Assembly (NCBI GenBank): GCA_015956445.1
Contig: WIUZ02000026.1
Span: 273,501 to 337,500 of the forward strand
Length of the DNA: 64,000 nt
Reading direction: 5' to 3'
Source of the DNA: Thelephora terrestris
Lineage: Eukaryota > Basidiomycota > Agaricomycetes > Thelephorales > Thelephoraceae
In this document: positions 7,915 to 64,000 of the stretch, piece by piece
Layout of the letters: each line of letters opens with the position of its first letter
How positions within the stretch are numbered: the stretch's first letter is position 1
Translations under genes and position numbers: made by a program
The notes under the pieces: model-generated
Told to the model about the DNA's origin: nothing
Database searches by the model: none
Seen by the model: the letters and a program-made list of their open reading frames with translations, nothing else

Positions 7915-10595
7915 TATGAAAAGTGCCAGCTTCATGGGGTGTTAGACATGCTGGGCTTTCTGTACAGAATCTGGCATAGAAAAGGCGTATGAAATCCACC
8001 CTTATGTGCACAGAGACAAAACCAATTGCTTCAGCAACCTAGTCTTTGGTGAGCACCACCTTCCAGCACAAAAATGTGCAAAGCTCCAGCTTCCTGGGGG
8101 CATAGACATGCTGGGCTTTACACAAGGTATGGCAGGGAAGGGTAGAAAAAACACACCACACCTCAGAACCCATCGTGTTTGCAACTAGGTCCATCAGTGG
8201 GATGCAACCATGGCCTGACTACACCCAAGGACCTGTGGCATTTGCCTCTAGGCCCAGGAGCATAAGCCAGTAGGCAAACAAAGAAACAGGCACATCACAC
8301 TCAAGTACCTGTGGTATATGCCACCAGGTCCATGAGCATAACACAAAAGAGAAAGAGAGGAATAAACACACCACACCTCAGAACCTGTTGCGTTTGCAAC
8401 TAGGTCCATCAGTGAGATGCAACCATGGCCTGACTACACCCAAGGGCCTGTGGCGTTTGCCTCTAGGCCCAGGGGCATAAGCCAGTAGGCAAACAAAAAA
8501 ACAGACACATCACACTCAGGTACCTGTGGTATGTGCCACCAGGTCCATGAGCATAACAGAGAAGAGAAAGAGAGGAATAAACACACCACACCTCAGAACC
8601 TGTTGCGTTTGCAACTAGGTCCATCAGTGAGATGCAACCATGGCCTGACTACACCCAAGGGCCTGTGGCGTTTGCCTCTAGGCCCAGGGGCATAAGCCAG
8701 TAGGCAAACAAAGAAACAGACACATCACACTCAGGTACCTGTGGTATGTGCCACCAGGTCCATGAGCATAACAGAGAAGAGAAAGAGAGGAATAAACACA
8801 CCACACCTCAGAACCTGTTGCGTCTGCAACTAGGTCCATCAGTGGGATGCAACCATGGCCTGACTACACCCAAGGACCTGTGGCGTTTGCCTCTAGGCCC
8901 AGGGGCATAAGCCAGTAGGCAAACAAAGAAACAGACACATCACACTCAGGTACCTGTGGTATGTGCCACCAGGTCCATGAGCATAACAGAGAAGAGAAAG
9001 AGAGGAATAAACACACCACACCTCAGAACCTGTTGCGTCTGCAACTAGGTCCATCAGTGGGATGCAACCATGGCCTGACTACACCCAAGGACCTGTGGCG
9101 TTTGCCTCTAGGCCCAGGGGCATAAGCCAGTAGGCAAACAAAAAAACAGACACATCACACTCAGGTACCTGTGGTATGTGCCACCAGGTCCATGAGCATA
9201 ACAGAGAAGAGAAAGAGAGGAATAAACACACCACACCTCAGAACCTGTTGCGTTTGCAACTAGGTCCATCAGTGAGATGCAACCATGGCCTGACTACACC
9301 CAAGGGCCTGTGGCGTTTGCCTCTAGGCCCAGGGGCATAAGCCAGTAGGCAAACAAAAAAACAGACACATCACACTCAGGTACCTGTGGTATGTGCCACC
9401 AGGTCCATGAGCATAACAGAGAAGAGAAAACAGAGAAGTAAATGCATCACACCCAGGAACCTATCGCGTCTGCAACTAGGTCCCCAAGCCTTGGGTGAGA
9501 CACTATCTTCCAGCACATTAATGTGCAAAGCTCCAGCTTCCTGGGGGTATAGACGTGCTGGGCTTTACACAAGGTATGGCAGGGAAGGGTAGAAAAAACA
9601 CACCACACCTCAGAACCCATCGCGTTTGCAACTAGGTCCATCAGTGGGATGCAACCATGGCCTGACTACACCCAAGGACCTGTGGCGTTTGCCTCTAGGC
9701 CCAGGGGCATAAGCCAGTAGGCAAACGAAAAAACAGACACATCACACTCAGGTACCTGTGGTATGTGCCACCAGGTCCATGAGCATAACAGAGAAGAGAA
9801 AACAGAGAAGTAAATGCATCACACTTCAGAACCTGTTGCGTCTGCAACTAGGTCCATCAGTGAGATGCAACCATGGCCTGACTACACCCAAGGACCTGTG
9901 GCGTTTGCCTCTAGGCCCAGGGGCATAAGCCAGTAGGCAAACAAAGAAACAGACACATCACACTCAGGTACCTGTGGTATGTGCCACCAGGTCCATGAGC
10001 ATAACAGAGAAGAGAAAACAGAGAAGTAAATGCATCACACTTCAGAACCTGTTGCGTCTGCAACTAGGTCCATCAGTGAGATGCAACCATGGCCTGACTA
10101 CACCCAAGGACCTGTGGCGTTTGCCTCTAGGCCCAGGGGCATAAGCCAGTAGGCAAACAAAGAAACAGACACATCACACTCAGGTACCTGTGGTATGTGC
10201 CACCAGGTCCATGAGCATAACAGAGAAGAGAAAGAGAGGAATAAACACACCACACCTCAGAACCTGTTGCGTCTGCAACTAGGTCCATCAGTGGGATGCA
10301 ACCATGGCCTGACTACACCCAAGGACCTGTGGCGTTTGCCTCTAGGCCCAGGGGCATAAGCCAGTAGGCAAACAAAAAAACAGACACATCACACTCAGGT
10401 ACCTGTGGTATGTGCCACCAGGTCCATGAGCATAACAGAGAAGAGAAAACAGAGAAGTAAATGCATCACACCTCAGAACCTGTTGCGTCTGCAACTAGGT
10501 CCATCAGTGGGATGCAACCATGGCCTGACTACACCCAAGGACCTGTGGCGTTTGCCTCTAGGCCCAGGGGCATAAGCCAGTAGGCAAAAAAACAG
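7915..10595. repeat. 215-bp tandem array, about 12 units
   Basis: The block CCACACCTCAGAACCTGTTG recurs at 8371, 8586, 8801, 9016 and 9231, exactly 215 bp apart, and continues to about 10,590. Each unit has GCAACTAGGTCCATCAGTG, ACACCCAAGG.CCTGTGG and GTATGTGCCACCAGGTCCAT. One unit near 9,480 is cut short and joined to a copy of the sequence that opens the array (CCAGCTTCCTGGGGG, 8088 and 9533), so a longer segment duplicated once before the 215-bp expansion. The unit corresponds to the inner blocks of the palindrome at 1471-2371. Confidence 0.9.
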
Positions 10596-14735: not shown

Positions 14736-15219
14736 AAGTGTGAGTAAGTGTAAAGCGATAGACGTGAGTGAGTGGTTAAAGCTAAGTAGTAGGTGTGGGT
14801 AGACGAGTGTGAACCGTAAAGGGTGAATGTTTAGGTTGGTGTGAGGCGTGTGAGTGAGTAAGTGGGTTGTAGTAGAATTTGGATGTTAAGTGTGAGTGAG
14901 TAAGGGTGGAGTAGTAAGGGTAGTGGAAGTAGGTGTCAAGGGTGAGCAAGTGTGAGATGGTAGACATGAGAGGGTTGTTGTAGTGTGAGCTGTGCAGAAC
15001 AATGTGGATGTCTAGGTCGGTGGGTTAAAGAGCGGCTAGTGCGGATGGGTAGGCTGAGTGTCAAGTGAGGGGGAATAATGTGGTTGTGGTGTAGGTGGGT
15101 AGGGGGTGTGCAAAGGAGGTTGTGGGGGTCTACAGAAGAGCGAAAGTGTAAGCACAAGCAGGTGTGTGTTGTGGAGGTTAGGTTAGGTTGTTCAGGAATT
15201 GGAGTAGAGTTGTGCTGCC

Positions 15220-15240
15220 ATGTGTGTGTGTGTGTGTGTG
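15220..15240. repeat. (TG)n microsatellite
   Basis: About ten perfect TG units inside the larger G/T-rich tract. Confidence 0.9.
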
Positions 15241-16150
15241 GAGAAAGCTTACAAAGCTTGGGAGGTAGTTTTGATCATATCATGACATCTTGACATAAGC
15301 CAGGTGAGGAGTGTGCTGTAGAGTTTGTAGGAGACCGGTATGGCTGTGAGAAGGTGTAGAAGGGCAAGGTGTTTGGAGAAAGACAAGTGGTATGGAGTAG
15401 AGGGTAGGAGCAGGTGGGTTGTACAGTGAGTGTGGTGTGGCTTAGGAGTAGCTGGTCAGCAATAACAGATAGTGTAAAGTTGTGGACTGTGTAGAGTCAC
15501 AGTAGCTGTGTGTGTGAGACTGAAAAAAATGGGTGTAAATGCTCAAAAGGGTGTAGGGGGTAGGTAGGTTGTGTCCAGCAGGTATGGGCAGTAGCTTGTA
15601 CAATGGCAGGTGTGGATAGGAGTGTAAGTGTAAACAAGAGTAAAGTGTGAAAAAACTGTGGTTGCGTAGAAAAAAAAAGGCATGGGGGAGTGAGGTTGTG
15701 GTGGGGGTAGGTGAGTGTGAGTGAGTAATCGTGAGGAAGTGAGGGTAGGTGGTAGGTGTAGCTTAGTAAGCGAGAAGTGGCAAGGGGTAAGGTGGTGAAT
15801 GTGGGTAGTGAGCGTTAGTGGAGTAACAGTGAAGTTGTAAGTGTGAGGTAGTAAGTTCAAGGCGTAGGTGTGAGGTAGAGTACTTGTGGTGTTAATTGTG
15901 GGGTGGCAAGTGTAGAGTGGTAAGTTTGAGCAAGTGAGGGTAAGGTGGTAGACGTGCGGAGGTAGTGTGAGTGAACAGGGGTGGAGGGGCAATCACAAGG
16001 TAGGAGATGTGAGGTGGTAAGGGCAAGTGAGGAAGTTTGAGGAGGTGAGGGCGAGGTGGCAGGTGAGGGGTGGTAGGAGTGGAGTGGTAAGGGTGGATAG
16101 TTGAGTAATCAAGGTTGAGGTGGGATAGTAACTGTGGCTGGCAAACTAGT

Positions 16151-16195
16151 CCTATTATGCCCAGACGGCCCAACGGGCCGTCGGGGCATAATAGG
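16151..16195. repeat. 45-nt perfect hairpin
   Basis: CCTATTATGCCC (16,151-16,162) pairs with GGGCATAATAGG (16,184-16,195), and GACGGCCC pairs with GGGCCGTC, with one mismatch and an AAC loop. It marks the sharp border between the C-poor tract and unrelated sequence. Confidence 0.85.
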
Positions 16196-19732: not shown

Positions 19733-22700
19733 TTGCGATGCCGGTGGACACCTCGCCCTGTAGGCTGCAAGGTGAGCACTGTTTTCTCTTCGCTAATCCA
19801 TCCGACTCAATATCATGCTATGCAGATCATGATCAGTTCTCTACCGAAGGATACCAACGAGTGCACAGGAAACGGATGGCTCACGTATGGCCATGCCTTA
19901 TTCGATCAAGCCTTCGAGTAAGTTCCATATCTCTGAATTCAACGCGAGTCACAGGCACTGACCGAACTCAGGCCCTCGCGATTGCTCCTCCCTCGCTCTT
20001 CTCGCCACACTCATCCCCTCCCCCCCCGCTCCTCTCCCCCAGGGCTATATCCTTCTCGTTATCCTGCCACTCGACAAACCTGCCCCCACGCACGATCTTA
20101 TCTACGCCCCTCGTTTAGATAAGAAGATGTTTGAAAGGTTCGCTTTCTCCCCACTAGAGGAGATGAGATTGTTCACATTCGCGTTTATAGCCCTGAGGAA
20201 CGCGTAGAAGATTTCGAGACCCATCAAGGCCTCCTCCGGGATGGGATCCAAGTCAAAATGCGTGGTGTATCACCAACGATCTACCGAGCGGAGGACAAAG
20301 CCCTCCATTGTCCCTACGCGGGGTGCAAGGTCAAAATGTCGAACTCGTGTAACTTCCAGGTTTGTGCCATGGTATTACTTTATCACCCCTAATCTGAAGA
20401 CGGATATACCAGGGACATGTGAAGAAATGCAGATACGCCGTGTCCGGTGTAGGCGTCAAAACCGCCTCAGCATACCCGACGCCAACACCGGAGATCCAAT
20501 CCCCCTACTTTCCTGACGAAGACATTACCATGGAAGAGGCCGACGAGATGTACAACGACGACCCGACACTATTCGACATGCCGATGGAGGAAGATTTTTT
20601 CGACGACGCGGATGAAACATTGGTCGAGATCCCGGGCGCCCCCGATGAAGATGACGACGCTCAAGGTCAAGATAACCTCCTAAACATCGACACCCATGAA
20701 GACAACGACGAGGACAACGACGAATTTACGGACCACAGCACGGACGAAGAACGATCTGGTCCCCTACATAAAGATGCGACAGCAGCCAGGTGGTCAGAAG
20801 ACACCATTCAGACTGAAGCCATGTCCCGGCTCGGGATCTGCGTCAACACAGCTGCAAGGGTTCTGATATGTATTGCTTGCGCTTCTGCCATCAGGCCTCT
20901 CGAATTACCCGGACACCTCATCACCTCTCACCCTCCCATGTCGACCAGCACTGCATTCTCCCAAGAGCTCGCAAACACGTACGACCTCCGCATAGACCTC
21001 GAATCACGACCTGGATCCATCATCACCGCAATCTATGGCCTGGACTTAGTAGATGGGTATCTCGCTTGCGACACGTGCGGACACGCCTGCAAATCCCGTG
21101 ACTCGATGAGAAGGCACATGAGAGCGATTTCTGGTTGCAAAACCTTCCGAGAACGCCTTGTACAAACCTTTCGTCCCAAATCCAAGCGACTTTATTTCGG
21201 CGTCAACCTCGATCCCGAGCCCAGAGAAGAATTGGCTGACTCGGCTTCCCTCGATCCCCTCGTCTACCTCAAAAAAAAGTACGCGCCCATACCCTTCAGC
21301 GACATCCCGATCAAGTCTCTGAAGACTCCAAGGGACGCTCACCACTTCCTCGCCCTCGAAAAATGGGACGTATACGTGGAGGGAAGGACTGGGGCAGAGA
21401 TAACACATGCCGTTAGGGAACGAGAGCCTGAACTTCGAAGCGAAGTCCGGATCTGCGTGGATCGGTTTGCGGTTGACGTCACCCAGAAACTGAGCACAGC
21501 TGATCATCAGACGAAAGCTGCTATGGGCGACTATGCTGGGTAAGTAGACCGTCGACTGCTATGGTTTCAAACATCTCGGCTGAATATCATATTAGAATTG
21601 GCCTCACCTCAAGCAAGTTCAAAGACTTGCAGAATGAAGAGACGAGGAAGGCGTATGGGAAGGTAGCGACCGACCTCGTCGTCTTCTGCCTAGGCGTCAT
21701 CACCGGCGAGATCAGCCAATTCCGGACAAGCTTCACTCAAGAAATCGCTGACGCCGGTACCAAGTTCTTGGCCACGCTGCAAACAACCTCTACCTCCGAT
21801 CAGGATGGGGCCCTTCAAACATTCCTCTTCTTGCTCTTCAATCAGAAAAGACGCGGCGAGGCCGACAAATACACCTTCCTTGCCTTCTCCTTTCTCGTCC
21901 TGTACTCGTTCAACGAAAGCGGAACTCTCCGGCCGTGCAACGTCTTCACACAATTCTTTTCCAAGACGATTTTCTTCGCTCGAGGTGCAATATTCAATTG
22001 CATCACCTCCGACGCCACGACGGAAAACAAGGGATTTTTTGAGTGAGCTTAATTCCGTAGATCGAGACGCGTCATCTCACCTTGTACACTACAGAGTCTA
22101 CGAAACCTACAAACACCTGCTTCTGATCCGATCCGATTATCCGCTGTCCTCGATCTACACCACGAAGAACCTGGCGAAGAAGGTCTCACGTGACCAAGAG
22201 CGGGAGAACAAAGTGAATTTTGTTGGACCTGGGAAAGAGACGGCTATAATGGGGAAGATTGCGGTCAACCTCGGGAGTTTCGGCGAGTGGTACCGAAAGC
22301 TGTTGGAGGAGGTAAAGAGGATGCAGTCGGACCTATTCAGTGGAATCGGCTTTGAGGATGAGGAGTGGCTGTTGGTCACGGTACCAGAGGTTCTCGTAGA
22401 TGAAGTCAACACAAGCAACCCGGGGTTTTCCTTTGGAGACATGGAGAGGAACGACCTGTCAAAGTACGAAAATGCTGCTCTGAGGACCCTCTTCGAGCAC
22501 CCTCGCCTCAAGGGTCGGTTCGGCACCATACTCCCGGGAGGAAGATTCATTCTCAACGCCGTCGGCTGTCACGAGTTTCTTCAAAGGTCCTCCCTCACCC
22601 GAACGAAAATGGCAACCCTTCTTCATATCTCAGGTGGTGGGCCTGCGCGTGGGACAGAGTTCACAGCAAGCTACCTCCGGAATCATCCCCAGGGTGACAT

Positions 22701-25700
22701 CCGAAACGTGAGGGTCATTGACAACGAACTATGTCTAGTCGGATCGTACAACAAGACATCGGGCATTGTACGTTTATTCCTCAAAGCGGTGAGAACCACG
22801 TTGATCGTGTTTGTTTTTTAGACCGAGAGGCGAAAGAAGATATACCGGTTCGTTCCGAAGAGTCTTTACCAACCCTGCATCATCGACTGGTTCATCATCC
22901 GGCCGGTGGAGATCATCCTTGCAGGAGCTCTCGGGCTAGATTCCGCGGTGGAGGAACTACGGTACCGGCTTTTTCCCGGGGTTTACCATCCGTTCACTTC
23001 AGAGGTCTTCTCTAAATGTCTGAAGAGGGACTCGCATCTTCACCTTGGTCAAGGGATTGGACTCTCGGACTTCCGAGACCTTCAATGCAACATTGTCGAT
23101 CAGCACCGGGACCCGGAGGCGATCAAGCTCAAGAGTTCGGACAACGTATCTGACCTTCAACAAGGTCATTCCCCCTCCATGGCGGACGAATATTACCTCC
23201 TAAGGCCCGATCGTCCCTGTGACAGGGGCGCGATCGCAGCATACCATCGTGCCTCAAGTTGGTGGCAGCACATCACTGGTATTCAGATTTCAGTTTTAAT
23301 GAGAAATCACACTGACGTTTCTTCTCAGGAATCCAACCGATAGAATCCCCTTCCAAGTCCAATCAAACAAACGCCCACCACCAGATAGGCCACGCGCCGT
23401 TCACCTCGACGCCGGGGCTCGAATCGGAAATAAACCGGTTGGTGAGTCAGGTGGCGAACCTCAGTATCAGCCTCCGTTCAACCATCAACGATTCGATCGG
23501 GAGCGCGCTTGCCTTACAAGAGAGGAGGGGGTTGAACACAGAACCTTCGTCTCAACTTCAACGCGAACTTTATGTTCCCCACCCGTCACTCACAAGGCTG
23601 CTTCGGAATTTCCTAGGCAACGGCTCAGCCACGTTCAAGACCCCGGAGCAAGCGGAGGCGATTGAATTTGTCCTCGCGCACGAACGTCATCTCCTGTTGG
23701 TTGGACCAACTGCGATGGGGAAAACACTTGCTTACATGCTCCCCGCTGCCAACCGCGATCACGGGATCACCTGCGTCCTTCTCCCTCTTTCCGCTCTCCA
23801 CACCGACTTTGACCGCAGGTGTACGGACCTGAAGATTGAAAGCTCACGATGGACGCCACAGAACGACCGACCGAGGACGAAGATCATTTACGTATCACCT
23901 GAACATGCACAGACTAAGCGGTTCAACGACCACGTCTTTGAATTGCATCGACTCGGACTCCTCAAACAATTCGTAATCGACGAGGTTCATCTTGTGAAAA
24001 GTCACTCCGACTTCCGTTTTTGCTTCTCGGCGTTAAAACCCCTTCTCAGCTGTGGTGAGTCTGAAAACCAACGTTGTACGGTGAAGTCTAAGTTCAGTTA
24101 CAGGCGTCCCCTTCTTGTTGATGACAGCAACTTGTCCGCTTCCCCTTCGATCCGAGATCTTGGGCGCTTTAGGAATCAGCGATTGCCACATCATCCACGC
24201 CCCCACAGACAGGCCCGAAATCTCTTACCGGGTTGACATTTCTCCAACTCTCGATGAAGCGAAGGAGAAGTTGGTGGTGGCTGTCGAGGACCGGCTTGCC
24301 AAGACAAAGTCGACTTCGTTCCGAGGGCTGGTCTATTGCCGAAGTAAGAAGGATGTTGACGAGATTGCTGAGAGGTTGGGGTGCGACGCGTTTCACGCAG
24401 GACGACCGGTCGAGGAGAGAAAAGCCAGCTTCCAGAACTGGGTCAATGGGAAGAAGAAGTTTATCATCTGCTCGTCGTTGCTGGGCTGCGGTATCGATAT
24501 CGAAGGTGTGGCCGTCGTCTTCCATTTTGGAACTCCCTGGTCAATCTTGGACTTTGCTCAGGAGAGTGGCAGAGCTGGGCGTGGAGGCAAGGCCTCAATC
24601 AGTGTTGTCTACGCTGCAATGGATGAACGGGAGCCTGATGACGGGGAGGAAAATGCTCTCTATGGCAAGAAGACAATGAGGGAGTGGACACTTCAGAACT
24701 CGATCTGCCGTCGGGTTACTCTCAGCTCCTTCTTGGACGACCGGCGCACCACGTGCACTCTCCTCAAGGGTGCGGTTCCATGCGACGTGTGCTCTGCAAA
24801 GTCGTTGGAGCCACACCCAGGACTCCTGGTTCCATTTTCAACCCTCACAATCCCCTCTGAGAACGCTCCCGAGGCGATGCACCTTCCGACCGTCCCACAG
24901 TCTTCTCTAGAATATGTGGTTAGCGAGAACTCACTGCCGACGACCAAGTAAGTTATTTTTTTGATCTCTCGAGGCTTGCGCTGATGCGAACCTATCCAGA
25001 TCACTCACGTCGCATCCTGAACTCGTCACACCCGCCAATCAAGGACCAGCCCCTTTGAGCCAGCTAAAGCGGAAGCGTGATGAAGAACCAAGGTGAATTT
25101 ATTCCTTAAACGTGCCCTGCACGATGCTGACAACGAATTCTCTGGGAGTGGGGCAAACAAACGACAGCGGGTTAGCCAGGTCACAGGCCCGATCCAACCT
25201 TCCGAGACAGTGACGGTACCGCGGCGGACGGAGAACCCTCTCCTCGAGGACATCGAACGCAAGGCTTTGGCGGCCATCCACGAGCGAAGGAAGCACATAC
25301 CAGCATCTTCGACTGTCTCGGTCTCAAAGAACATCTGGGCGAACGAGCTGGTGCTTGAGATTGCGGCACAGATGGTCCACGAGGTGAGAGCTGATGTCAC
25401 GGAAAACTACCGTGGGTGCTCGCCTTGCTATATGATAGCAGGTGAGGCGGGCACTACCCATCGGTCTGGAAAGGGATGTCCCAAGATGCCGCTTACCCGA
25501 TCAACTGTGGGCTGGACGGATTTCAAGGATAACCTGAAGTTTGCAGAAGGGATCATGTGTTGGAATTGCCTCTTGCCGACGGTAATTTTGTTGCCACATT
25601 TTGAACGCCCCGTTGACTAGAGATCAAACAGAATGAAAAAACGAACATGGCCGGTGCCGTCTATCATAACACCGATGAGTGTACTCTACGGCACTACATC

Positions 25701-25901: not shown

Positions 25902-26140
25902 ACTGATTAGTTTGCGTCCGCTATCACGCCGTCGTAGTGCCCTTTGTACAGAGTTAGGTTACTTTCGAACAGAGCTCTTGCACTCTGTCTGTTACAGCTG
26001 AAGTCCGGTTGAGGGGATCTGGTATGACGGGCGGTCTGTCGAACCACTTTGGCGGATACACACGTCACGCTCTGGAGAAGATACAGACGCTGGAACATTT
26101 TAGGAATTAACTGGGTCCATTCAATACCATACATGCACCT

Positions 26141-26600
26141 CGGACAGTTAGGTTGGGTGAACTAACCCATCGGCCAGTTAGGTTAGGTTAGCTAACACTT
26201 CGGACAGTTAGGTTAGGTTAGCTAACACTTCGGACAGTTAGGTTAGGTTAGCTAACACTTCGGACAGTTAGGTTAGGTTAGCTAACACCTCGGACAGTTA
26301 GGTTAGGTGAACCAACCCATCGGACAGTTAGGTTAGGTTAGCTAACACCTCGGACAGTTAGGTTAGGTGAACTAACCCATTGGACGGTTAGGTTAGGTTA
26401 GCTAACACCTCGGACAGTTAGGTTAGGTGAACTAACCCATCGGACAGTTAGGTTAGGTTAGCTAACCCATCGGACAGTTAGGTTAGGTAAACCAACCCAT
26501 CGGACAGTTAGGTTAGGTAACCTAACCCCTCGGACAGTTAAGGGTTAGGAAGTTAGGGGTTAGGAGGTTAGGGTTATGAGGTTAGGGGTTAGGACAGGTT
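26141..26600 (+). repeat. 30-bp telomere-like minisatellite
   Basis: About 14 units of CGGACAGTTAGGTTAGGTTA plus GCTAACACCT (with variants), exactly 30 bp each, then irregular GGTTAGGGGTTAGG runs to 26,595. The G-rich strand is the plus strand, the same orientation as the tracts at 57.7, 58.7 and 63.2 kb. It starts about 240 bp after the stop of the helicase gene. A GGGCCCGC-GAGA-GCGGGCCC hairpin (26,612-26,631) follows it. Confidence 0.9.
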
Positions 26601-48983: not shown

Positions 48984-51900
48984 ATGGGGAAACGCAAGCT
49001 GAAGAACAAGACCCTGACCAAGATTGACCCTAGCATCTTCAAAGCAAAGCCCCAAGCCGTCTCTCAGCATGCCACCAACGACGGAGAATGCGTCGTCACC
49101 GCCGTCGAACTAAGTCACCCTTCGCTCGCACCGGAATCTCTTCTGTACCCAGACCTCTTCGATGCAGACATCAAAAATCTTGACGATGAGGGGTTGGAGG
49201 ATGATGGCGCCAATGAAGGTGTCCCAAAAGGCTCCTATGTCGGACGGGTGCGCGCTTTCACCCCCCCTTTCCTACCCAGGCTCATTATGATTAGGACAAC
49301 CCACTCCTCCAGTGGAAGCCGGAGCGCGATACATTCCTCAAGGAGCTCATACGGCTCGAAGGCCGAGGCGTGTTCACCGATGGCCGGTGTGAACTCTGCC
49401 ACAAGGATGGCATGTTCCGTTGCCTCGATTGCCTCGCCATTCAGTTCCTTTGCGCAGGCTGCGTGAGCCGAGTGCACTCATTCAATCCATTCCACACCAT
49501 CGAAGTAAGTCTACGAACATCACACATATTATCATCCAAGGTTCTGACATGCTGGGAAACAGAAGTGGAATGGTTCGTACTTTGAGATGTCCTCTCTCCG
49601 GCAAGCAGGTCACCTCCTCCAACTTGGCCATCACCCCGCCGAACAATGCACAAATCCCCAACGGAGCACCAAGCCCTTTACGGTTATCCACACGAATGGA
49701 ATCCACCTTGTTGACCTTGCATTTTGCGGGTGCACTGAGGTTGGTAACCATGGGACCCGAGTTCAGCAACTGCTCCGCCGGCGACTCTTCCCTGCAACGA
49801 CACTCGATCCTCAAACTGCTTGCACCTTCTCGCTTCTAAAGTCGGCTCAATTGCTCAGCCTCCAGTCAAAGCTTTCACTCTACGATTACTACCTATCAAT
49901 AGAACGTTTAACTGACGCGACCGGTACGTCCAACGTCAACGTGAGTTATTTTTTCCACCAGACTCCAGGCCCACATACTAACGTACTCAAAGGACCGGTA
50001 CAAAGAGTTCCTTCGAACACTGCGCATGTGGCGTCACCTCAGGATGATGAAACGCGGCGGTCGCTCTTATGACCCTACCGGCGTTGACGGCACTTCTCCT
50101 GGGGAGCTCGCTGTGCTTTGCCCAGCCTGTCCCATACCTTCAGTCAATCTGCCGCCCAACTGGAGGTCCGTGGGGAAAGAACACGAGTAAGTCCCTTCTC
50201 CGCATCATGGTTCACTCTCTCATGAATCTTACTGCTCTAGATACCTATATTACCAGTCGTTTGGTATTGATGCCTGCTTCCGGTTCAAGCGGAGACAAAT
50301 CTCAAGCTATGAGAAAGACCCTGAGTTGGGTCCTGGGTATGCATACCTCGTTGCGTGGGATGCGTACAGTGAGTACCTCCGTCGCTTCACTGACCAGCGG
50401 GAGGTTCGGTTTATTTTTCTTGGTCACCCAGCTTCGAGACTGACCCACATGACAAACAGATGAGTACATGCAGTGGGCTTGCCGCCCTTGACCACGCCAA
50501 CAGCAAGTACTCAAAAGGCTACGCGACGACCGGAATTGTATGCACCACCTGCCGGCATGAGTTTCTTCTTCCTGAAGGCGCGGGCCCCCTTCAGAAGGGT
50601 GAAAGGTTGGTCTTTGGCTGCAATTACTTTATTGACTGGCTGAATTATATCACAGGTACGCTAACACTGACTACGTTGTTGTCCGAAGCACCTCGCACAA
50701 TCTGGAGACGAAGAAGGTGGCGTCTTACGATATCATGTGTCAGTGGAGTGTCAATCTTCGGGATCGCCTCAAGGACTTTCCCCATCTGGACGCAGAATGC
50801 CTAGACGACCAGATTGTTTCCCGCCTTGTTCCCAAGTTCCATCTCGCCGCTCACAAGGAAAGCTGTCGGGTAACATTCTCTCTAAACTACGAACCGGGTG
50901 TTGGCCGCAGCGACATGGAGGGGCCCGAGAGGACATGGTTCGGTCTACAAGGAGGGGGTTCAACAAAAGATCAGGGGCCCGGGTACTGGAGTGACGCGAT
51001 GGATGACAAGTTTGGTCATTGGAACTGGTCGAAACTCATCCGCCTTGGTAGGGCCCTCTCATTTTCGTTCTATTCCAATGCTAATCTACTGCACGTTTTT
51101 CAGGTACATTGCTTGCAAAGAAGTACACTAATGCTCTTGTGCAGTCAGCTACCCATGAAGACGAGTTTACTGCTCTTTGCACCGGTATCTCCAGTGAGAC
51201 ACTCGGTTTGTGGACAACAGGAATCACCGAGTGGGAACTCGATCGAACGAAGCCGAACCCTTACTTCCGTCCTTCATCTGGTGCGACCAATCATATCTTG
51301 TCCCTTTCCTCATCTAAATTCCGGGGTTGTCAGGTCTCTCGGAGTCACAAATTCGTAGGCGTTTGAGCCTAGAGGAGGAAAATGAAGAGCTCACCTCTGC
51401 TGCAATGGGGTCCGAGGATGACTTTACTGAAACCAAGTACCTCCTGTACGGGCTTGATCTCGAAGACCACCGGTATGAGCCCTCTGTTATATGTTAGGGT
51501 TTCTTTGATTAACTTGATCTCAGGCGTAAACTTCAGGCCGCACTATCATCATCAACTTCTGACATACCTTCTACTTCGGTCATCGAGCTACGAACCTCTT
51601 ATCGCCGTCGTTTCGCGAAGTTCCGTCAGCTACAGCCACGATTCCAGCCCGAGGTTACGCCTCTACTCAGTCAACTCCCTCCGACCAGCACGGACCCTCA
51701 GACCATTCAGGATGCCCCTCTCTATCTCCCTTCTTCGTTACCTCCCAACGCCCTGAGCGAGTGCTCCAAACGACTACTATTTATGGAAAAGGAGCTTCGA
51801 ATTGGTCAATGCCGTGACTGCCTTGTCCAACTCCGCACAAAGCTCAATGCTCTAGCACGACTTCTCAAACACAAGTATGTCAATATCCGTCACCAAGCCT

Positions 51901-56150: not shown

Positions 56151-57670
56151 AACGTCCCCCTCCCACGCATTCGACCTGCACGAAGCGATGGGATAGGTCC
56201 AGATTGCTCAGGGCGGCGGAACAAGTCGACTCCAGAGCCCCGATTTGTTTCCGAACGCAAGCACAAGGAGGTCGTTTAGTTCCCCAACTCTCCGGTAACT
56301 GGACACAGACCGAAGACTGCGGTGTGATACAGTCCCCGTCCTCGCAACCACAATCTACTCGCCCACGGGGAATCAGCGCCCTCAACCCGTGGACGATCGT
56401 TCGTGCATGCAGATGCGCTCGCTCGCCCTCATCTCTGCCCCTCTGGGTCGTCGGGCCTTTCTTCAGTACGGCATTACCCTTGAGATCCTCAAGACTCCAC
56501 AACCAGGTTTGAGGTTCAGGTTACCTATTGTCATTCCCACATGATATTGCTGATGAATACCTGTATTCCTACTCCCGCAGCATTTCCCACGTAGGTTTGG
56601 GGAATCAAAGGTGACGGATAAGTTTGGAACTGAGGATGAGAGTGAGGACGGTGAGCACATGGCCTGCAGTGCAAAAGATATTGGGAACAAGTGTAGTGCC
56701 GATGAGGACCTCTTTACTGAATTACGAATTTTACATGTCACAAACATTTCACATTATGACATTCGTTTGAGCCGTCGATCTCCTTCGGGCGTGATAGGGT
56801 CGTTGCCAAACGAAACCAAACAACTTGGCCTCGCACTTGGCTGGGAAGGCTCTACCTCACCCCTTCCCATCGAACGTTGGCCTGACGGCAGAGTCTCCTC
56901 CCGAATCTTATCGGCACAATCTGGGACTTGACTCTACCTTTGACCACTCTGTGCTGGGACTGCATCTCTGCTGTCACTTCTGGGCCAGTCGTTTGCTACT
57001 GGCCGAACATCCACTCCTTTGATAACCTCGGGACTTCCACCGAGACCCTCACTCCTTTACTTCCGGGTTCCAGTACGTGTTTTCCTCCTGTACACCTGAA
57101 GGATCCTTACATCCCTGCAGATTTACATCTGACCCATCTGCCAGCTCATTGACGACCGTTCCAAGGCAAGTTTTTTCTTCCCCAGGACCTTCCAGGGGGT
57201 GGGTTAAATCTTGAGCGTTGAGCGACCCCCCCTTGTCGCTCCGCTCGGTTGAGCCCCTGAAAATCCCACAACCGGGAAGGTCTTGTCCGATGCCAGACGT
57301 TCGCTCATGAAATTTTTGCATTTTGTCCAGACATGAACCCTGATGCAGAAGGGGCGACTCCTGCATTTCCAGAGGGACAAAGGGACACCAGGGACCTGGA
57401 GTCTCTCGTTCCACCCTGGGTAACTGTCCCAATCTTCCTAGTATCTGCAGGCTTCAGGATCTCACTACATTCTTAGGGGACTGTTTCCTGTCTGACCAGC
57501 CAGTTTGATGTTGAGAAGGCAGTCCTAAAGTCTCTGTCCAAGCAGACTAGAAGGACTGAGAGGAGCCTATCTCTGTCTAGCTCCTCGTCAACTTCCTCCT
57601 CAGATCTTCCGATCTCTTCTCATCTCGGGGCCGGCAACACCAGTGAAGCAGACGTGGGACAGGAAGGTTC
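56151..57670. other. no gene supported
   Basis: Frames up to 160 codons on both strands look like shadows. The dispersed foldback copy (57,201-57,256) lies here. The region ends at the telomere-like tract. Confidence 0.4.
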
Positions 57671-57715
57671 TTTAGGTTAGGGTTAGGTTAGGTTAGGGTT
57701 AGGTTAGGTTAGGGC
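57671..57715 (+). repeat. interstitial telomere-like tract
   Basis: A mixture of TTAGG and TTAGGG units (TTAGGTTAGGGTTAGGTTAG and on), G-rich on the plus strand, directly joined to the Penelope-like element at the hairpin. The join looks like a former chromosome end. Confidence 0.9.
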
Positions 57716-57717
57716 GA

Positions 57718-57752
57718 GCAACCCACCTCCGCCGAAGGCGGAGGTGGGTTGC
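57718..57752 (-). repeat. 16-bp terminal hairpin of the Penelope-like element
   Basis: GCAACCCACCTCCGCC pairs perfectly with GGCGGAGGTGGGTTGC around a GAA loop. It sits a few bases from the telomere-like tract, at the 3' end of the presumed element RNA. Repeated at 63,183-63,217. Confidence 0.9.
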
Positions 57753-57842
57753 CTAAAGCCTTGCTTACTGATAAAAACTTGATTTGTTTTTGAGGGAGGG
57801 CAGCTGAGGTTAGTAGAACGCAGCTGAGATGATGGAGGAAGG

Positions 57843-57911
57843 GGGAAGAGAGGTGAAGAGATCGATCGATCGCTCCGACTCCCCTTTCGCCGTTTAGGCT
57901 CATCAGTTCCC
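57843..57911 (-). ncRNA. hammerhead ribozyme, type I topology, copy 1
   Basis: On the minus strand: stem I GGGAA, core CUGAUGA, stem II GCC-UAAAC-GGC, core GAAA, stem III GGGG pairing with CCUC (one G-U), then the cleavage triplet CUC and the closing stem I strand UUCCC. A15.1-U16.1 also pairs. The predicted cut is between 57,848 and 57,847. The long stem III loop holds the self-complementary GAUCGAUCGAUC. Penelope-like elements are known to carry hammerheads in their terminal repeats, which supports the call. Stem I is only 5 bp unless a bulge is allowed. Confidence 0.75.
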
Positions 57912-58699
57912 ACACTCCCTGATTGGTGGAAGATACCGACCGGTAGCCCCGTAAGGGGCCAATAGTCCGGCCCGACAGTCTAGACCGTGACGTAGTCACG
58001 CGTCATCACTGACGTCGGCTTACTAAGTCGTTCGATCGAACGTTCCATTAGCTAAGCGTTCCAGGCTCCCTACCCATCAAAACGATCGATCGATCTCTCC
58101 ATCAAACTTCTCGGATCAACCCCGCACCTTCTCGTCAGCTCTAGGCTCACGACGTCATCCCTGATAGGCGCTCCCGTCCTCGGACTGATCCAACCGTTCG
58201 GCCCGCATTACCGGTTATTACCTAATGGGAAAGACCCTTCCGGATCAAAGAGACACGCTAACCGAGAATAGCCGGTATTGCCGAACCGATTCTCCTTGCC
58301 GACCGGACCGGTTTCCGGGGTCCGGTTAACAAAGCAGCCGAGTGCCGGCCGAGATGGCCGATTGGTTGTCTAAAAATAAACAGATTACGTCATCGCCGAT
58401 GGCCGAGGTTACGTAAGCCTCGGGCCTGGAAGCTATGTCACGTGACCGGCAGTTTCCGGGCCGGGGCGGCCCGCCGGTCCGACCACGTGCCTAACCTTAC
58501 GTAATATGACGCAACCGAAGTTACGTAATATTACGTAATACTTCCATCGGATGTTAAATTTAGGCGCCGGTTACGGCGCCTAAATTCAAACTCCGCTGAT
58601 GGGAAGTTAGGTTAGGTCACGTGGCCCGTGACGTCATTCACCCGCCTAAAGAACCGGTTAAAACCAAACGTCGCTCGAGATAGCTGCTAACACATACCT

Positions 58700-58752
58700 T
58701 GGGTTAGGTTAGGTTAGGTTAGGTTAGGGTTAGGTTAGGGTTAGGTTAGGTC
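58700..58752 (+). repeat. second telomere-like tract inside the Penelope-like unit
   Basis: GGGTTAGGTTAGGTTAGGTT continuing to 58,752, again G-rich on the plus strand. It lies between the terminal repeat and the 3' side of the RT gene. It may be part of the element or an old junction between two added pieces. Confidence 0.85.
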
Positions 58753-59014
58753 CGGCCCCGTTAGTAACGGTTTGGGACGATCTATACGACCTTGACTGCT
58801 TACTTAGTGCGGTACTACGCCAGTAGTCGGAACGATCCAGGTTTTCATGAACGGTCGAACTCCCTTGCAATCGGGACCTAATAGGGGGGAGGAAACTATC
58901 GTCGGGTTAGCGGGTGTTTCACCACTACCCAGGATGCACAGCCTGCCGACTCACACCTAGCGCAACGAGACGCACGCGCCGCTGATGACCTCCGTACCGT
59001 AAAAGTTGTTCGGT

Positions 59015-62000
59015 TCACTCTGCCTCGTCGTCAGACGGGACGTACCCTTCATACAGGGGAGCGAAGGGGCGTAACTTACCCTCTTCCTCCAAATATCGAT
59101 TCCAGACCGAGTTGTTCCAGCCTCGTGTAACGTCCCACAATTGTGTGTTTTTGCGGCGACTAACGAAAAACTTCCCGGTTGTAACCCATCGCTGAGTCCA
59201 CCTACTCTCAAGCTGGCGTCGAGTTTCAATGAGATGACCGGAGGGTACTCCGGGCTGAACCGAAGGTCCTGCCACATCAGTACCGTCGTCTTGGGTGAAC
59301 CTTAAACGAGACTGCCCGGGGAATTCACTTCCCTGGAGTCCGATGTTAACCCTCCGGCGTTTCACCCCCGAAGAACCCGAAGGCTCGTCTGCAGGGTTAT
59401 CTCTTTGAAGTCGTTTGCGACCAGCAACAACGGACCGGTCGATGCCGGTGTCCCATTGTGCGATGATTCTGGTTCCCATTTCCTGTACGTTGAAACCTTT
59501 CCATGCGTCGTTGAAGTGAGTCTTCAGGATGAAAAACGTATGCGCGGGGTCCTCCTCCACCTTGATGGATAGTCTATTGGCCCAACGTTTCTCCTTCTGA
59601 TCTTTCAACCACGACGTTACCAGATTTTTGGGATAGCCACGCCCAATATAGAGGTTAACCGCCTCTTCACACTGCAAAGCATAGACATCATAATCTGAGC
59701 AAAGCGTGGCCAATCTGGAAATTTCAGAGCTGAACGTACCCTTCTTAACGTCTTTAGGGTGCGCGCTCGTCCATGGAATTCGTTCTCGGTGGGACATAGC
59801 TTTCACAAAGGGTTCGTGAAAGATTCTATCACCCTGAATCTTTAATGTGAGATCCAGGAAGTTCGCCGTATCAGAAGGCGGTTCCCACGTTAGTTTAACG
59901 TCCCCGTAATGGACGACGGATTGCAACAGAGCTTTGGCCTCGTCAGGCGTATCAGCTAACACTATGCCGAAGATATCATCTAGGTAGCGGCCGAAGAACA
60001 AAACATCGTCAGAGTCATCCAACTTATTCATCCACATAAATTCGTACCACAGCCCGAACATATTGGCCATTTCCGGGGAGCCTGCTGCGCCCATGGGAAT
60101 GCCTTTACATTGGTATAATATCTGATCCAAAAATGTCATAACCGGGCCGGTGAGAGCGATCCTGAACATACGTTCATAGAAATCTTTACGGGAGACTCTC
60201 TCCGTGTCGGAAATTTTTCCTTGTTCCACCTCCTGGGGTATGATAGTGAACTCCGCGAAAGTACACAAAGCAGTCAGAAGTAGTTGCACATCTATGGAAG
60301 GATAGAAGGCTACGACATCTGCGCTCACCAGGTAGGCTTTCCTATTAGCCGGTATTTTAACGTCCGCGAGTTTCCTCACAAAATCTTTAGAGCCCTGTAT
60401 GACCCAGGGGCGAGAGTCGACCCACGGACGGAGTACTTTGGCGCAAAACTTGGAAGCAGCGTTCTGGGGTAAACTGTAACCCGGACAAATTGGTCTGCCT
60501 TTCCAAGGTTTTTTGTGGATTTTTGGAATAGCGTAGGCTTCTGGCACGAATGCCGCCCAATTTGCCCACTCATCCCTTTCGTTTGCGTCGGGCATATTAT
60601 GAGTCATGAATGTAGTAAGCTGCTTTTCACGAACGAGGTGATCTCTGCAGAGCTCGTCAATGAAATTGGCCAGTGTTCTCAAATGGTTTCTTGCTTCGTC
60701 TGGTGTGACGGGAGAGTAGTTTTCTCTGTCTCCGAATAGTCCCATCGCTTGTTCTCTAATCCAGTCCCTTTTAAATACCGCGACCCCTAGATTCTTGTCC
60801 GTATTGGTGACGATAAGGTTATTCGTCGCCATGAACGATCGAGCGCGTTTTATGTCCATTGGGATGGGTACCCTCTGGTTGTTATCCCTCTCCGGTAGTG
60901 CCTGTAGCGCTTGGCTTACAAAGGCATGGCCGGCAGAGAGTCCGCGTTCGATGTGTGGGGCTGCCAAGGGGGGTAGCTTCTTAACTGGTTTATACAGTGG
61001 AAGCGCCCTCTCGACGTCGTAGTCTGGGTCATAAGAACCGGTGTCTTTGTCGAGGAAATACCATTTCCATCGAGTTCGTCTCACAAAGTCACTCCAAGCT
61101 GCATAAATTAACGTCTTATCGATCTTCGTTTCAAACATAAATTTGAGAGACGCTGAAAGATCATGTTGAATTCCGAGGGGTACATCAACACCAGGCTGCA
61201 CATGAACTAAACTACGGAATCTATTTGCGTCCAGCAGGGGCATGGGCGCACGAGATAGCAGAGCATCGGCCTGATAAGACGGAGAGAGAGTTAGTATTTC
61301 ATCCGGGTAACTGGGAGGTACTCCAAATGTCCAGGGCATACCTTTAATTTGCCCAACTAGTCGTTCGCTCTTCCTTTTCCCTTCGCGTTGTTCCCAGGCT
61401 TTCCCTGCTTGGACGCGTCGCCAGAAGGGGGTCCTTTTTTCTTCTTCTGTTTGTTGGACCCTAGGAGTGTCTCCTTGGCGGTAGGGGTGGTGGAGGCCTT
61501 CTCGGCCGCCTTCTTCTCCTTCTTTTTCTCCTTTTTCGTCTTCGCCGGCGGGGGTTTGGACTGGGGCTGCTATATGAATAGGGTCAGAATGAACTGCGCC
61601 ACGATGCACGAGACTAGCCTTAGAAGGGGAGGAGCCAGATGCCTTCGGCAGGAGTTTCTTTGCAAGCGCCTCCATCTGGCGCTGCACCTCCTTGTTGATG
61701 GCCTGCTGGGCTTCGGTGGTCGAGGTGGACGCTACATCCTCCATTGCCACATCTACGGTGCGCTTCTCTTCGGCTTTATCCTTCTTCTTGCCGTGAACCC
61801 TTTCGATCGCCTCCATCTTCAAGTCTGTAAACTTCTGGACGTAAACGGGGAGATCTACTTGAAGCGCCCTCAGCTCCTCTTTCAGGTCGTCGACGTCTGA
61901 AACCTCCAGCATGTCCGCTGTCAGTTCCGTCGGCCAATCGGCGTTATCGGCAGGGGTGGGGATTTTGACCCTGTACTGCGTCGATTTGGGGCGCTCCTCG

Positions 62001-62644
62001 TATCTACGTTGAAGCGCCGACCAAGCTACCTGGAGTATAGCCCCCTCTCGGATTTGGTCGTTAAGGGCGTTGAGCTGTTTAGACACGAAGAGAATCTCCG
62101 CGTCGAACATAGACTTTTTCGCCTGTGCGACCGCGTCCTTGGCGGGCAAGCTGAAGTGTTCGTTGAACAGTCCTTTCGACCCCTTCGAGTACTGGACACT
62201 GGGCAACTTTACAGAGTTGTAGTGGAAGGGAAATTCCCCCCTGCCCTTCATGCCGTCGTACTTCTTCGCCTTGCGTGTCAAGACGTCGATCTCATCGAGA
62301 AGGACCATGAGGTCGCTTCCGATGGTCGTTAGGGTCGCCCGATAGTAATCGGGAACCGTCGATAGAACCGCAGCGAGATCAAGGCACCCCCTGATCTTCA
62401 CTCGACGCTCAACAAAGGCGTCTCGGTGGTGTGGGTCCCATGCCCTTCGCGCCGACTCAGTGGTCTGGTCGGAGCCGAATCCTGCCTCCGCGATGGGGAA
62501 CAGACGGGTCATGGGGGATAGGCCGCGCATTGAAGGGGTCACCGGTGGTGTCCTTGCCCCTGCACTCGAAGAGCGCCTGCTTGGTCCGGCGGAAGCGTCT
62601 ACCGAATAAACGGCGTCAGTTCCATGTCGTCCCAGACGAAACAT
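59015..62644 (-). CDS. Penelope-like reverse transcriptase, no GIY-YIG domain
   Basis: A 1,209-codon uninterrupted frame. Residues about 613-628 (TDKNLGVAVFKRDW) are the conserved block before RT in Penelope-like proteins. PKIHKKPWKGRPI (about 705), SADVVAFYPSID (about 773, first catalytic Asp), GIPMGAAGSPEMANMFG, FFGRYLDDIFGIV (about 885-897, the catalytic DD) and ANFLDLTLKI follow in RT order. The C-terminus (about 180 residues after the RT thumb) has no GIY-YIG motif but an Arg/Lys-rich KRRR patch, so the protein lacks the usual endonuclease. The N-terminal 500 residues are coiled-coil and Lys/Glu-rich, longer than in canonical Penelope. The protein would copy its RNA at telomere ends, close in principle to telomerase. 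No stop or shift, so the copy may be active. Confidence 0.9.
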   Translation of the reverse strand: MFRLGRHGTDAVYSVDASAGPSRRSSSAGARTPPVTPSMRGLSPMTRLFPIAEAGFGSDQTTESARRAWDPHHRDAFVERRVKIRGCLDLAAVLSTVPDYYRATLTTIGSDLMVLLDEIDVLTRKAKKYDGMKGRGEFPFHYNSVKLPSVQYSKGSKGLFNEHFSLPAKDAVAQAKKSMFDAEILFVSKQLNALNDQIREGAILQVAWSALQRRYEERPKSTQYRVKIPTPADNADWPTELTADMLEVSDVDDLKEELRALQVDLPVYVQKFTDLKMEAIERVHGKKKDKAEEKRTVDVAMEDVASTSTTEAQQAINKEVQRQMEALAKKLLPKASGSSPSKASLVHRGAVHSDPIHIAAPVQTPAGEDEKGEKEGEEGGREGLHHPYRQGDTPRVQQTEEEKRTPFWRRVQAGKAWEQREGKRKSERLVGQIKGMPWTFGVPPSYPDEILTLSPSYQADALLSRAPMPLLDANRFRSLVHVQPGVDVPLGIQHDLSASLKFMFETKIDKTLIYAAWSDFVRRTRWKWYFLDKDTGSYDPDYDVERALPLYKPVKKLPPLAAPHIERGLSAGHAFVSQALQALPERDNNQRVPIPMDIKRARSFMATNNLIVTNTDKNLGVAVFKRDWIREQAMGLFGDRENYSPVTPDEARNHLRTLANFIDELCRDHLVREKQLTTFMTHNMPDANERDEWANWAAFVPEAYAIPKIHKKPWKGRPICPGYSLPQNAASKFCAKVLRPWVDSRPWVIQGSKDFVRKLADVKIPANRKAYLVSADVVAFYPSIDVQLLLTALCTFAEFTIIPQEVEQGKISDTERVSRKDFYERMFRIALTGPVMTFLDQILYQCKGIPMGAAGSPEMANMFGLWYEFMWMNKLDDSDDVLFFGRYLDDIFGIVLADTPDEAKALLQSVVHYGDVKLTWEPPSDTANFLDLTLKIQGDRIFHEPFVKAMSHRERIPWTSAHPKDVKKGTFSSEISRLATLCSDYDVYALQCEEAVNLYIGRGYPKNLVTSWLKDQKEKRWANRLSIKVEEDPAHTFFILKTHFNDAWKGFNVQEMGTRIIAQWDTGIDRSVVAGRKRLQRDNPADEPSGSSGVKRRRVNIGLQGSEFPGQSRLRFTQDDGTDVAGPSVQPGVPSGHLIETRRQLESRWTQRWVTTGKFFVSRRKNTQLWDVTRGWNNSVWNRYLEEEGKLRPFAPLYEGYVPSDDEAE

Positions 62645-63165
62645 ACAGGTCTTCCAATTAAGGAAGGTGGTAAGCCCATCAGAACGTTCCCACGCTTGCT
62701 ACCCCAAGAGGAGCTTCAACCATAATGGATGAAAAGTGTTGCCGTCACCGGCCTGTTGCTGCCATCGTCAAGGACACACAGTCCCGCCCAACAGGAGGAG
62801 GTTTCCCGCAAATTGCAGTAGGAGTCTCAAGTACTCCCTCCCCAGCAAGAGGTCTGAGGGCGAACCTCTGTTAACGTTCTGGGGTTCTACGAACAACACA
62901 CCCAGCGCCACTCTGAAGAGGGCCGCGCAAGGGTTAACCCTCTAAAGAGAGGGTTATAGCAAGCAGATCAAAGATCTGATGGGGTAAAACCCCTGTGAAA
63001 TCCCACATCGCCACCAGAGCATCCCCATTAGTCTGCACATCGCCCTAAGGCTTAGCAGACACATCTGGGGGGTCCTTGACTTAGGGAAAACCGCTTACTT
63101 CTGATACCAGACATCTTATCTAGCAGAAAGGTGCTAAGATAAGGGAGGAAAAGGTAAGCAAGCAT
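62645..63165 (-). other. leader region of the Penelope-like element
   Basis: Non-coding. Two small hairpins are visible: TAACCCTCT-AAAG-AGAGGGTTA near 62,934-62,957 and CTTATCTAGCA-GAAAGG-TGCTAAGATAAG near 63,116-63,144. Confidence 0.5.
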
Positions 63166-63180
63166 GGGTTAGGTTAGGGC
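63166..63180 (+). repeat. short telomere-like junction between tandem copies
   Basis: GGGTTAGGTTAGGG joins the leader of copy 1 to the hairpin end of copy 2. Confidence 0.85.
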
Positions 63181-64000
63181 GAGCAACCCACCTCCGCCGA
63201 AGGCGGAGGTGGGTTGCCTAAAGCCTTGCTTACTGATAAAAACTTGATTTGTTTTTGAGGGAGGGCAGCTGAGGTTAGTAGAACGCAGCTGAGATGATGG
63301 AGGAAGGGGGAAGAGAGGTGAAGAGATCGATCGATCGCTCCGACTCCCCTTTCGCCGTTTAGGCTCATCAGTTCCCACACTCCCTGATTGGTGGAAGATA
63401 CCGACTGGTAGCCCCGTAAGGGGCCAATAGTCCGGCCCGACAGTCTAGACCGTGACGTAGTCACGCGTCATCACTGACGTCGGCTTACTAAGTCGTTCGA
63501 TCGAACGTTCCATTAGCTAAGCGTTCCAGGCTCCCTACCCATCAAAACGATCGATCGATCTCTCCATCAAACTTCTCGGATCAACCCCGCACCTTCTCGT
63601 CAGCTCTAGGCTCACGACGTCATCCCTGATAGGCGCTCCCGTCCTCGGACTGATCCAACCGTTCGGCCCGCATTACCGGTTATTACCTAATGGGAAAGAC
63701 CCTTCCGGATCAAAGAGACACGCTAACCGAGAATAGCCGGTATTGCCGAACCGATTCTCCTTGCCGACCGGACCGGTTTCCGGGGTCCGGTTAACAAAGC
63801 AGCCGAGTGCCGGCCGAGATGGCCGATTGGTTGTCTAAAAATAAACAGATTACGTCATCGCCGATGGCCGAGGTTACGTAAGCCTCGGGCCTGGAAGCTA
63901 TGTCACGTGACCGGCAGTTTCCGGGCCGGGGCGGCCCGCCGGTCCGACCACGTGCCTAACCTTACGTAATATGACGCAACCGAAGTTACGTAATATTACG
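63179..64000 (-). mobile_element. Penelope-like element, copy 2 (partial, cut by window edge)
   Basis: Starts with the same hairpin (63,183-63,217) and follows copy 1 at an offset of 5,465 bp to the window end. Only the terminal-repeat part is visible. Confidence 0.9.
63308..63376 (-). ncRNA. hammerhead ribozyme, copy 2
   Basis: Identical to the copy at 57,843-57,911 in all core and stem positions. The one nearby difference (63,406) lies outside the predicted fold. Confidence 0.75.

Follow-up and report, generated by a model that had tools for sequence, protein, structure and literature searches.

Tandem copies of a Penelope-like element without a recognisable endonuclease abut telomere-type repeats at a contig end of Thelephora terrestris

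Coprina is the name given, with its kin in fungi, plants and protists, to telomere-attached Penelope-like elements (PLEs) that are deficient in endonuclease. As set out in PMC3846280, endonuclease-deficient PLEs prime on exposed chromosome termini or double-strand breaks, telomeric elements of this kind have already been reported in fungi, and telomerase and PLEs are thought to have a common ancestry. PLEs are also described at chromosome ends in the basidiomycete Agaricus bisporus (PMC7473861), rotifer Terminon RNAs carry at their end a hammerhead and then telomere repeats in reverse complement (PMC6431247), and the ascomycetes have a telomeric non-long terminal repeat (non-LTR) retrotransposon, FoTeR (PMC12857005). 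Here we analysed 64,000 nt of Thelephora terrestris (G000:C19:273501-337500, hereafter the window), the right edge of which coincides with the end of contig C19 and which carries two head-to-tail copies of a PLE joined to telomere-type repeats. We refer to the window element and its copies on contigs C10 and C12 as family A, and to the sister PLE frames elsewhere in the genome as family B. To judge by its sequence, family A is a further instance of the known telomere-attached, endonuclease-deficient PLEs. We think it likely that exposed 3' ends, at telomeres or at breaks, prime the addition of this telomere-attached fungal element without a recognisable endonuclease, and the locus fits a known but rarely seen mode in which an element extends or heals chromosome ends.

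The anatomy of the array is given in Table 1. Tract 1, the telomere-type tract at its left, meets GGGCGAG and then a perfect 16-bp hairpin (57718-57752), and the junction from tract to element reads TTAGGG-CGAGCAACCC. A sequence-only reading made before this analysis had described a G-rich telomere-like tract running straight into an antisense element, followed 5,465 bp on, past a short tract, by a second, nearly identical copy, and both statements hold. The hairpin-to-hairpin spacing is 5,465 bp, the element measures about 5.45 kb, and the copies, compared from a point just ahead of the hairpin as far as the edge of the window, agree at 818 of 819 positions, the single difference lying at 57941/63406. 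The right boundary of copy 1 (63165) is defined by the next telomere tract, so that the right (5') end of this copy is directly adjoined by GGGTTAGGTTAGGG, and a second reverse transcriptase (RT) frame was not seen because C19 ends 818 bp into copy 2. Toward the end of the element RNA, the order is hammerhead core, hairpin and telomere complement (...GCUCGCCCUAACC), and the candidate RNA 3' end is predicted as ...CGCCCUAACC, with CGCCC directly past the hairpin. As a weak lead, 9 nt at the RNA 5' end are complementary to sequence that precedes the hairpin. The 21-base telomere pattern occurs 59 times in 40.6 Mb, and an accidental abutment of tract and element end is therefore very unlikely, as an estimate made without simulation. 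At each of the two C19 junctions the 3' end directly adjoins the tract, in the orientation that G-strand priming predicts; the earlier proposal that this orientation is compatible with priming by a G-rich 3' overhang stands, and the host telomere is of like repeat type. The internal telomere-like tract at 58702-58751 was absent from the listing of the earlier reading.

Table 1. Features of the array, of its surroundings and of the related loci (window positions unless a contig is named; RT, reverse transcriptase; ORF, open reading frame)
Feature	Position	Strand	Remarks
Left flank repeat	57175..57671	.	80% paralogue C4:279236-279725; break after GGTTCT; paralogue continues without telomere repeats
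Telomere-type tract (tract 1)	57672..57714	+	43 bp; 5 TTAGG and 3 TTAGGG units; abuts element
PLE copy 1	57715..63165	-	No recognisable endonuclease; RNA sense is minus, 3' end left
3'-terminal hairpin, copy 1	57718..57752	-	16-bp perfect stem, 3-nt loop
Candidate hammerhead ribozyme, copy 1	57843..57911	-	CUGAUGA-GCC-UAAAC-GGC-GAAA; stems I/II/III 5/3/5 bp
Internal telomere-like tract	58702..58751	+	In 3' part of element
RT ORF from first Met	59015..62644	-	1,209 aa; no GIY-YIG match
Short telomere tract GGGTTAGGTTAGGG	63166..63179	+	14 bp; separates copies 1 and 2
PLE copy 2	63180..64000	-	Cut by contig end 818 bp from hairpin start
3'-terminal hairpin, copy 2	63183..63217	-	
Candidate hammerhead, copy 2	63308..63376	-	Identical to that of copy 1
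Subtelomere block	15048..16147	+	97% to C4 (1,102 bp), 99% to C11 (last 351 bp)
Frames with OrsD, DEAD and Helicase_C domains	20398..24951		Perhaps one interrupted subtelomere-type helicase gene
Family B loci	C59:1544967-1551901; C23:2190-2196 kb; C23:711-723 kb; C56 right end		
Palindromes of about 2 kb	C12:141100-143100 (L088); C13:503400-505500 (L089)		Opposite arms carry (CCTAA)n and (TTAGG)n; further loci of this kind exist

Like Coprina and its kin and rotifer Athena, to go by the account of endonuclease-deficient PLEs in PMC3846280, family A has no recognisable endonuclease, carries its 3' end on G-rich telomere repeats in end-priming orientation, shows 5' truncation and appears to use breaks. 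It differs from them, as far as can be judged from that article and not from the original Coprina description, in its TTAGG-type telomere, in the perfect hairpin between hammerhead and telomere complement, and in break junctions for which unbroken paralogues exist. With Terminons, the giant Athena elements of rotifers, family A shares head-to-tail arrays and a 3' hammerhead with reverse-complement telomere repeats (PMC6431247), but it is about 5.45 kb long with one long open reading frame (ORF), has neither giant size nor accessory ORFs, and places 90 nt and a hairpin between hammerhead and tract. Short telomere tracts between copies are also found in MoTeR arrays (PMC8381367); MoTeR and FoTeR, as non-LTR elements of ascomycetes, belong to another class of retroelement. 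We found no hairpin-type 3' end or pseudo-LTRs described for fungal endonuclease-deficient PLEs in literature whose coverage excludes the main 2007, 2014, 2017 and 2021 papers, which is weak evidence of novelty.

The 3' hairpin of family A occurs at four places in the assembly, twice on C19 and once each on C10 and C12. The C10 copy (C10:808688-809354, 667 bp) lies 5.8 kb from the right contig end in the same orientation as in C19, and the C12 copy (C12:17308-18077, 770 bp) lies 17.3 kb from the left end in the opposite orientation, facing outwards. With the C19 copies 0 and 6.3 kb from the contig end, all family A copies found are within about 18 kb of an end and face outwards. Both short copies are without the 5' part, the pattern left by target-primed synthesis. 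For 3 of 3 distinct flanks of family A insertions we found unbroken paralogues, which define three break points (a slash marks the break): the C10 copy corresponds to C12:25065, where GGAGGGTTGG/TCAG is replaced by GGTTGG/GGCGAGC, the C12 copy to C45:134668, where GATATG/AAAG is replaced by GAGATG/GTTAGGGCGAGC, and the flank paralogue of the C19 array breaks at C4:279725. The ends joined by the element are non-telomeric (GGAGGGTTGG, GAGATG and GGTTCT). Telomere repeats at the four junctions amount to 43 and 14 bp on C19, about 7 bp on C12 (one GTTAGGG) and 0 on C10, where nothing is added past GG and the junction shows GGTTGG only; the 3' end is joined to G-rich telomere tracts in two of the four copies, both on C19. 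The target past the break was unmatched behind the element, from the C12 and C10 copies to the contig ends and in the window, when target pieces of 333 bp (C45), 535 bp (C12, about 70 bp of it within the target repeat) and 1,575 bp (C4) were compared; a 51-bp repeat of the C45 piece recurs elsewhere in C12, on the flank side. Such junctions are what break healing or end capping by the element would leave. Adjoining the truncated 5' side of the C12 copy is a 195-bp sequence (C12:17113-17307) with which C7:1-300 and C11:1-300 also begin (99%).

By sequence the host is a fungus: an exon of uL3 scores best against fungal PDB chains (334-360 bits, against at most 309 for those of animals, plants and protists). 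A uL3 gene with four exon matches and the KDZ transposase piece of the window suggest a basidiomycete. The host telomere consists of (TTAGG)n with occasional TTAGGG units, as seen at the right ends of C11 (165 TTAGG, 6 TTAG and 5 TTAGGG units) and C4 (34 TTAGG, 1 TTAG and 2 TTAGGG units), and a TERT RNA-binding domain is encoded at C14:487195-487561. Tandem telomere repeats were present at none of the 60 contig starts (2 masked) and at 2 of the 21 right ends inspected; the right end of C23 has CCTAA scattered and in the wrong orientation. Matches to the subtelomere block of the window lie in the same orientation on C4 and C11, where 711 and 715 bp, respectively, separate their ends from the true telomere arrays, and this likeness to telomere-adjacent sequence suggests a terminal region. 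The block stops at 16147 in C19, and 47.9 kb remain to the contig end. The helicase frames to its right are RecQ-type candidates in our reading; in A. bisporus var. burnettii, as in other fungi, RecQ-like helicases are reported to lie in subtelomeres (PMC7473861). The 16.1-38.4 kb stretch was compared at its two ends, and both match the left end of C14 at 99%.

In the mechanism that we propose, the primer would be a free 3' end: the (TTAGG)n overhang at a chromosome terminus, or a break with little G-rich homology or none. Set on the end of the element RNA, this primer would start reverse transcription, and the antisense element would be added with its 3' end first. The new end could then be extended by telomerase or by another element copy, and the outcome would be head-to-tail copies with short TTAGG tracts between them. 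We infer the priming step, and roles for the hairpin and for hammerhead cleavage, which is predicted after C57848. Endonuclease-less PLEs are a close present-day example of an element that takes chromosome ends as primers. The fungal copy described here is full-length and apparently intact, its RNA has a defined 3' end and its genome also encodes a telomerase domain; end extension and break healing could be tested with it.

The hammerhead core is identical in 4 of 4 family A copies, in sense orientation and 90 nt from the 3' hairpin. In the C12 copy all 3 loop bases and none of the 32 stem bases of the hairpin are changed, and the hammerhead has three changes, all in the stem III loop. Markov resampling gave an equally good hammerhead in 0 of 4,000 sequences for the 3'-terminal 301 nt of family A, in 1 of 300 for the whole element and in 0 of 300 for family B, with stem thresholds that were chosen only after the hits had been seen. 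Family B has the core in sense orientation at 4 of 4 loci, with two each in C59 and C23 (2.19 Mb) and one each in C56 and C23 (0.71 Mb); stem II is 7 bp long in C59 and C23:2.19 Mb, and Rfam gives a sub-threshold Hammerhead_3 match of 15.5 bits for this family only. Available PLE sequences are reported to carry hammerheads, mostly minimal ones (PMC6155905). Over the whole window, nothing exceeded the Rfam gathering cut-off. Sub-threshold Rfam matches to snoRNA, sRNA and miRNA were set aside as chance or palindrome effects, as was an IRES_c-myc match above cut-off (45.8 bits) in a palindromic stretch of L004.

The sequence-only reading had called the RT frame intact and the element an endonuclease-less PLE, and the protein data agree with it. 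The minus-strand frame 59015-62698 runs for 1,227 codons without a stop, with its first Met at 62644, and the second-longest ORF of the sense strand (114 aa) overlaps it. The window protein contains YLDD (residue 905) and DVVAFYPS, RT motifs that we take to be of PLE type. Its RVT_1 match (E 1.8e-4, 21.7 bits) is below the Pfam cut-off of 29.6; RVT_1 was matched by 5 of 5 PLE proteins examined from the two families, with a best E of 2.3e-6. Pfam gave no GIY-YIG match for the window protein at E up to 10 and none for the 5 proteins at E up to 1, and both PLE families therefore appear to be without a recognisable endonuclease, although a nuclease of an unfamiliar type may be present in the N-terminal half of the protein. 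A PDB search with the element protein gave no meaningful match, NCBIfam gave weak matches to bacterial RTs, and a predicted model of the RT and C-terminal part, built from 5 sequences, was unusable (mean pLDDT 32.3). No relatives were found in viral_contigs with query A1 or in genome_contigs with query A2. Separately, query A2 matched a distant RT on a viral contig in viral_contigs (L115 3001-3402, 24% identity). The sequence-based assignment to the PLEs rests on the RT, on the hammerheads and on the pseudo-LTRs that family B carries.

Family B has a different structure. The window protein shares 44-46% identity with four family B frames (C59, C23 twice and C56), three of which are about full length while the C23:713 kb frame is N-terminally shortened. 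Three of the four loci are internal. The C59 locus has a direct repeat (5246-5621 and 9718-10093, 99.5%), and its 3' end recurs in inverted form at 3968-5250 (97.5%; positions as in L010 plus L011). C23:2.19 Mb has a direct repeat of 632 bp (98.7%) plus an inverted copy, and C56 has an inverted copy and a direct repeat of which 123 bp are present up to the contig end; at C23:0.71 Mb, which carries a large insertion, neither direct nor inverted repeat was seen. In total, direct repeats are clear at 2 of 4 loci and inverted copies are present at 3 of 4; the repeat structure of family A is a tandem copy only. Direct and inverted pseudo-LTRs and hammerheads make family B resemble canonical Penelope, from which both families differ in giving no GIY-YIG match. 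According to PMC3846280, the organisation into direct and inverted repeats is absent from PLEs of fungi, and a genome with a telomere-attached family A and a mostly internal, pseudo-LTR-bearing family B bears on that statement. The sequence-only reading had held that internal, scattered copies without telomere junctions would speak against it; these are present in family B and are not the pattern of family A, whose copies on C19, C10 and C12 are near contig ends.

Telomere-like tracts are spread through the genome, with 104 exact matches to the 21- and 24-base patterns at 53 loci, among which are the terminal arrays of C4 and C11 and the element's own internal tract. Outward pairs, with CCTAA on the left and TTAGG on the right, occur at 27 of the 53 loci and the reverse order at none, and the two outward-pair loci that were read are near-perfect 2-kb palindromes (96-97%). 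A family B end from the list is found no more than 5 kb away from at least 10 of the 53 loci, and the ends in that list face outwards; ten is a lower bound because 40 of 287 candidates were scored. As these tracts are common inside the genome, many of them paired or near family B ends, telomere-like repeats alone are no evidence of a chromosome end here. The ends of family B seem to flank a candidate non-autonomous element, a palindrome whose arms contain telomere repeats, and these palindromes, together with the structure of family B, were the result that we had least expected. Tentatively, and with somewhat more doubt than confidence, we propose that endonuclease-less PLEs have split within one genome: family A would extend telomeres and heal breaks, and family B would be internal, with hammerhead pseudo-LTRs, lending its ends to telomere-array palindromes, the inverted 3' ends on both sides of its copies coming from priming at the two ends of a double-strand break. 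If this is true, many internal telomere-like blocks of the genome would be PLE products, and telomere maintenance and break patching by PLEs would be open to study in a single organism.

Several observations weigh against end-primed addition as we propose it, or against parts of it. The earlier claim that the chromosome end lies to the right was not confirmed, for C19 stops at 337,500 inside copy 2 and no telomere was seen to the right of the array. The sizes of C4, C19, C26 and C56 (4 of 60 contigs) are multiples of 2,500 bp, C4 ending inside a telomere array and C19 inside the second element copy, and C19, like the other three, was probably cut during scaffolding. TTAGGG makes up 2 of 7 units in tract 1 and 7 of 206 in the true telomeres (Fisher p 0.03; the last unit of tract 1 and 7 telomere TTAG units omitted), and tract 1 may therefore not be a pure telomerase product. 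The flank paralogues are repeats, 80-95% identical, and not alleles. Where the C10 and C12 copies are truncated, on their 5' side, they are followed by other repeats and not by a telomere tract, and endonuclease-deficient PLEs are said to receive telomeric repeats at truncated 5' ends (PMC3846280). Because one full-length family A copy was found in the assembly, the internal tract could in principle mark where two separate units, 57715-58701 and the RT part, were joined. As for the family A hammerhead, looser stem rules give an average of 0.15 hits in mononucleotide shuffles of the minus strand, Rfam did not call it even at E 10, and the lowest-energy fold is without all three stems together.

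Some of these observations would also follow from an interstitial array, whether a translocated piece or an end healed long ago, that extends no end today. Such an array would account for a contig that stops at 337,500 without a telomere, for telomere-like tracts that are common internally (C4 and C11 being the terminal ones), and for a sister family that is internal at three of four places. It agrees less well with the subtelomere block on C19 in matching orientation, with helicase frames of a type that is often subtelomeric in fungi (PMC7473861), and with family A copies that are found near contig ends and face outwards. We consider an interstitial array unlikely, and judge that the array is probably terminal now or was so recently. 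The position of copy 2 at the contig end and its near identity to copy 1 could also point to an assembly artefact, a false duplication of the element end, which we regard as very improbable given that the 14-bp spacer is unlike tract 1, that other element sequence stands before it and that one base differs.

Copy 2 may not have been attached separately, in that one read-through RNA of a tandem source, or recombination between tracts, could have given rise to it. The two copies have a single difference in 819 positions, tandem pseudo-LTR arrays are formed by PLEs, probably with multi-copy transcripts (PMC11167929), and MoTeR arrays with short tracts arise in Magnaporthe telomerase knockouts, where they are read as recombination (PMC8381367). 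Tract lengths of 43 versus 14 bp favour serial attachment a little and nothing else separates the two accounts. We consider a single event or recombination somewhat unlikely. The origin of the tract itself may also be questioned, as it could have been copied from an element RNA ending in several telomere complements and not from the host telomere. The share of TTAGGG is higher in tract 1 and the internal tract together (4 of 16) than among telomere units (7 of 206; p 0.004, TTAG omitted), and the C12 copy carries one GTTAGGG into a non-telomeric site. However, the unit numbers are small and tract length varies from 43 and 14 to about 7 and 0 bp over the four junctions, and we find an RNA-copied tract quite unlikely.

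In the left part of the window, a hairpin with 21-bp arms (16151-16195) abuts the end of the subtelomere block and leads into related units, each roughly 1 kb long; the junction at 16147/16151 recurs at C14:22908-24109 (99%). This hairpin is possibly a second PLE end or, with equal likelihood, a Helitron-type end, which consists of a hairpin followed by CTAG. One giant element was also considered for the 41.5 kb from the subtelomere block to tract 1, an idea that was dropped because helicase frames, a KDZ piece and several tandem arrays lie inside and the ends of the first 22 kb recur on C14. The KDZ transposase piece is at 50636-51355 (E 7e-30), and KDZ transposases are also listed in Agaricus (PMC7473861). 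At 26140-26549, a 30-bp unit containing TTAGGTTAGG is present in 13.6 copies.

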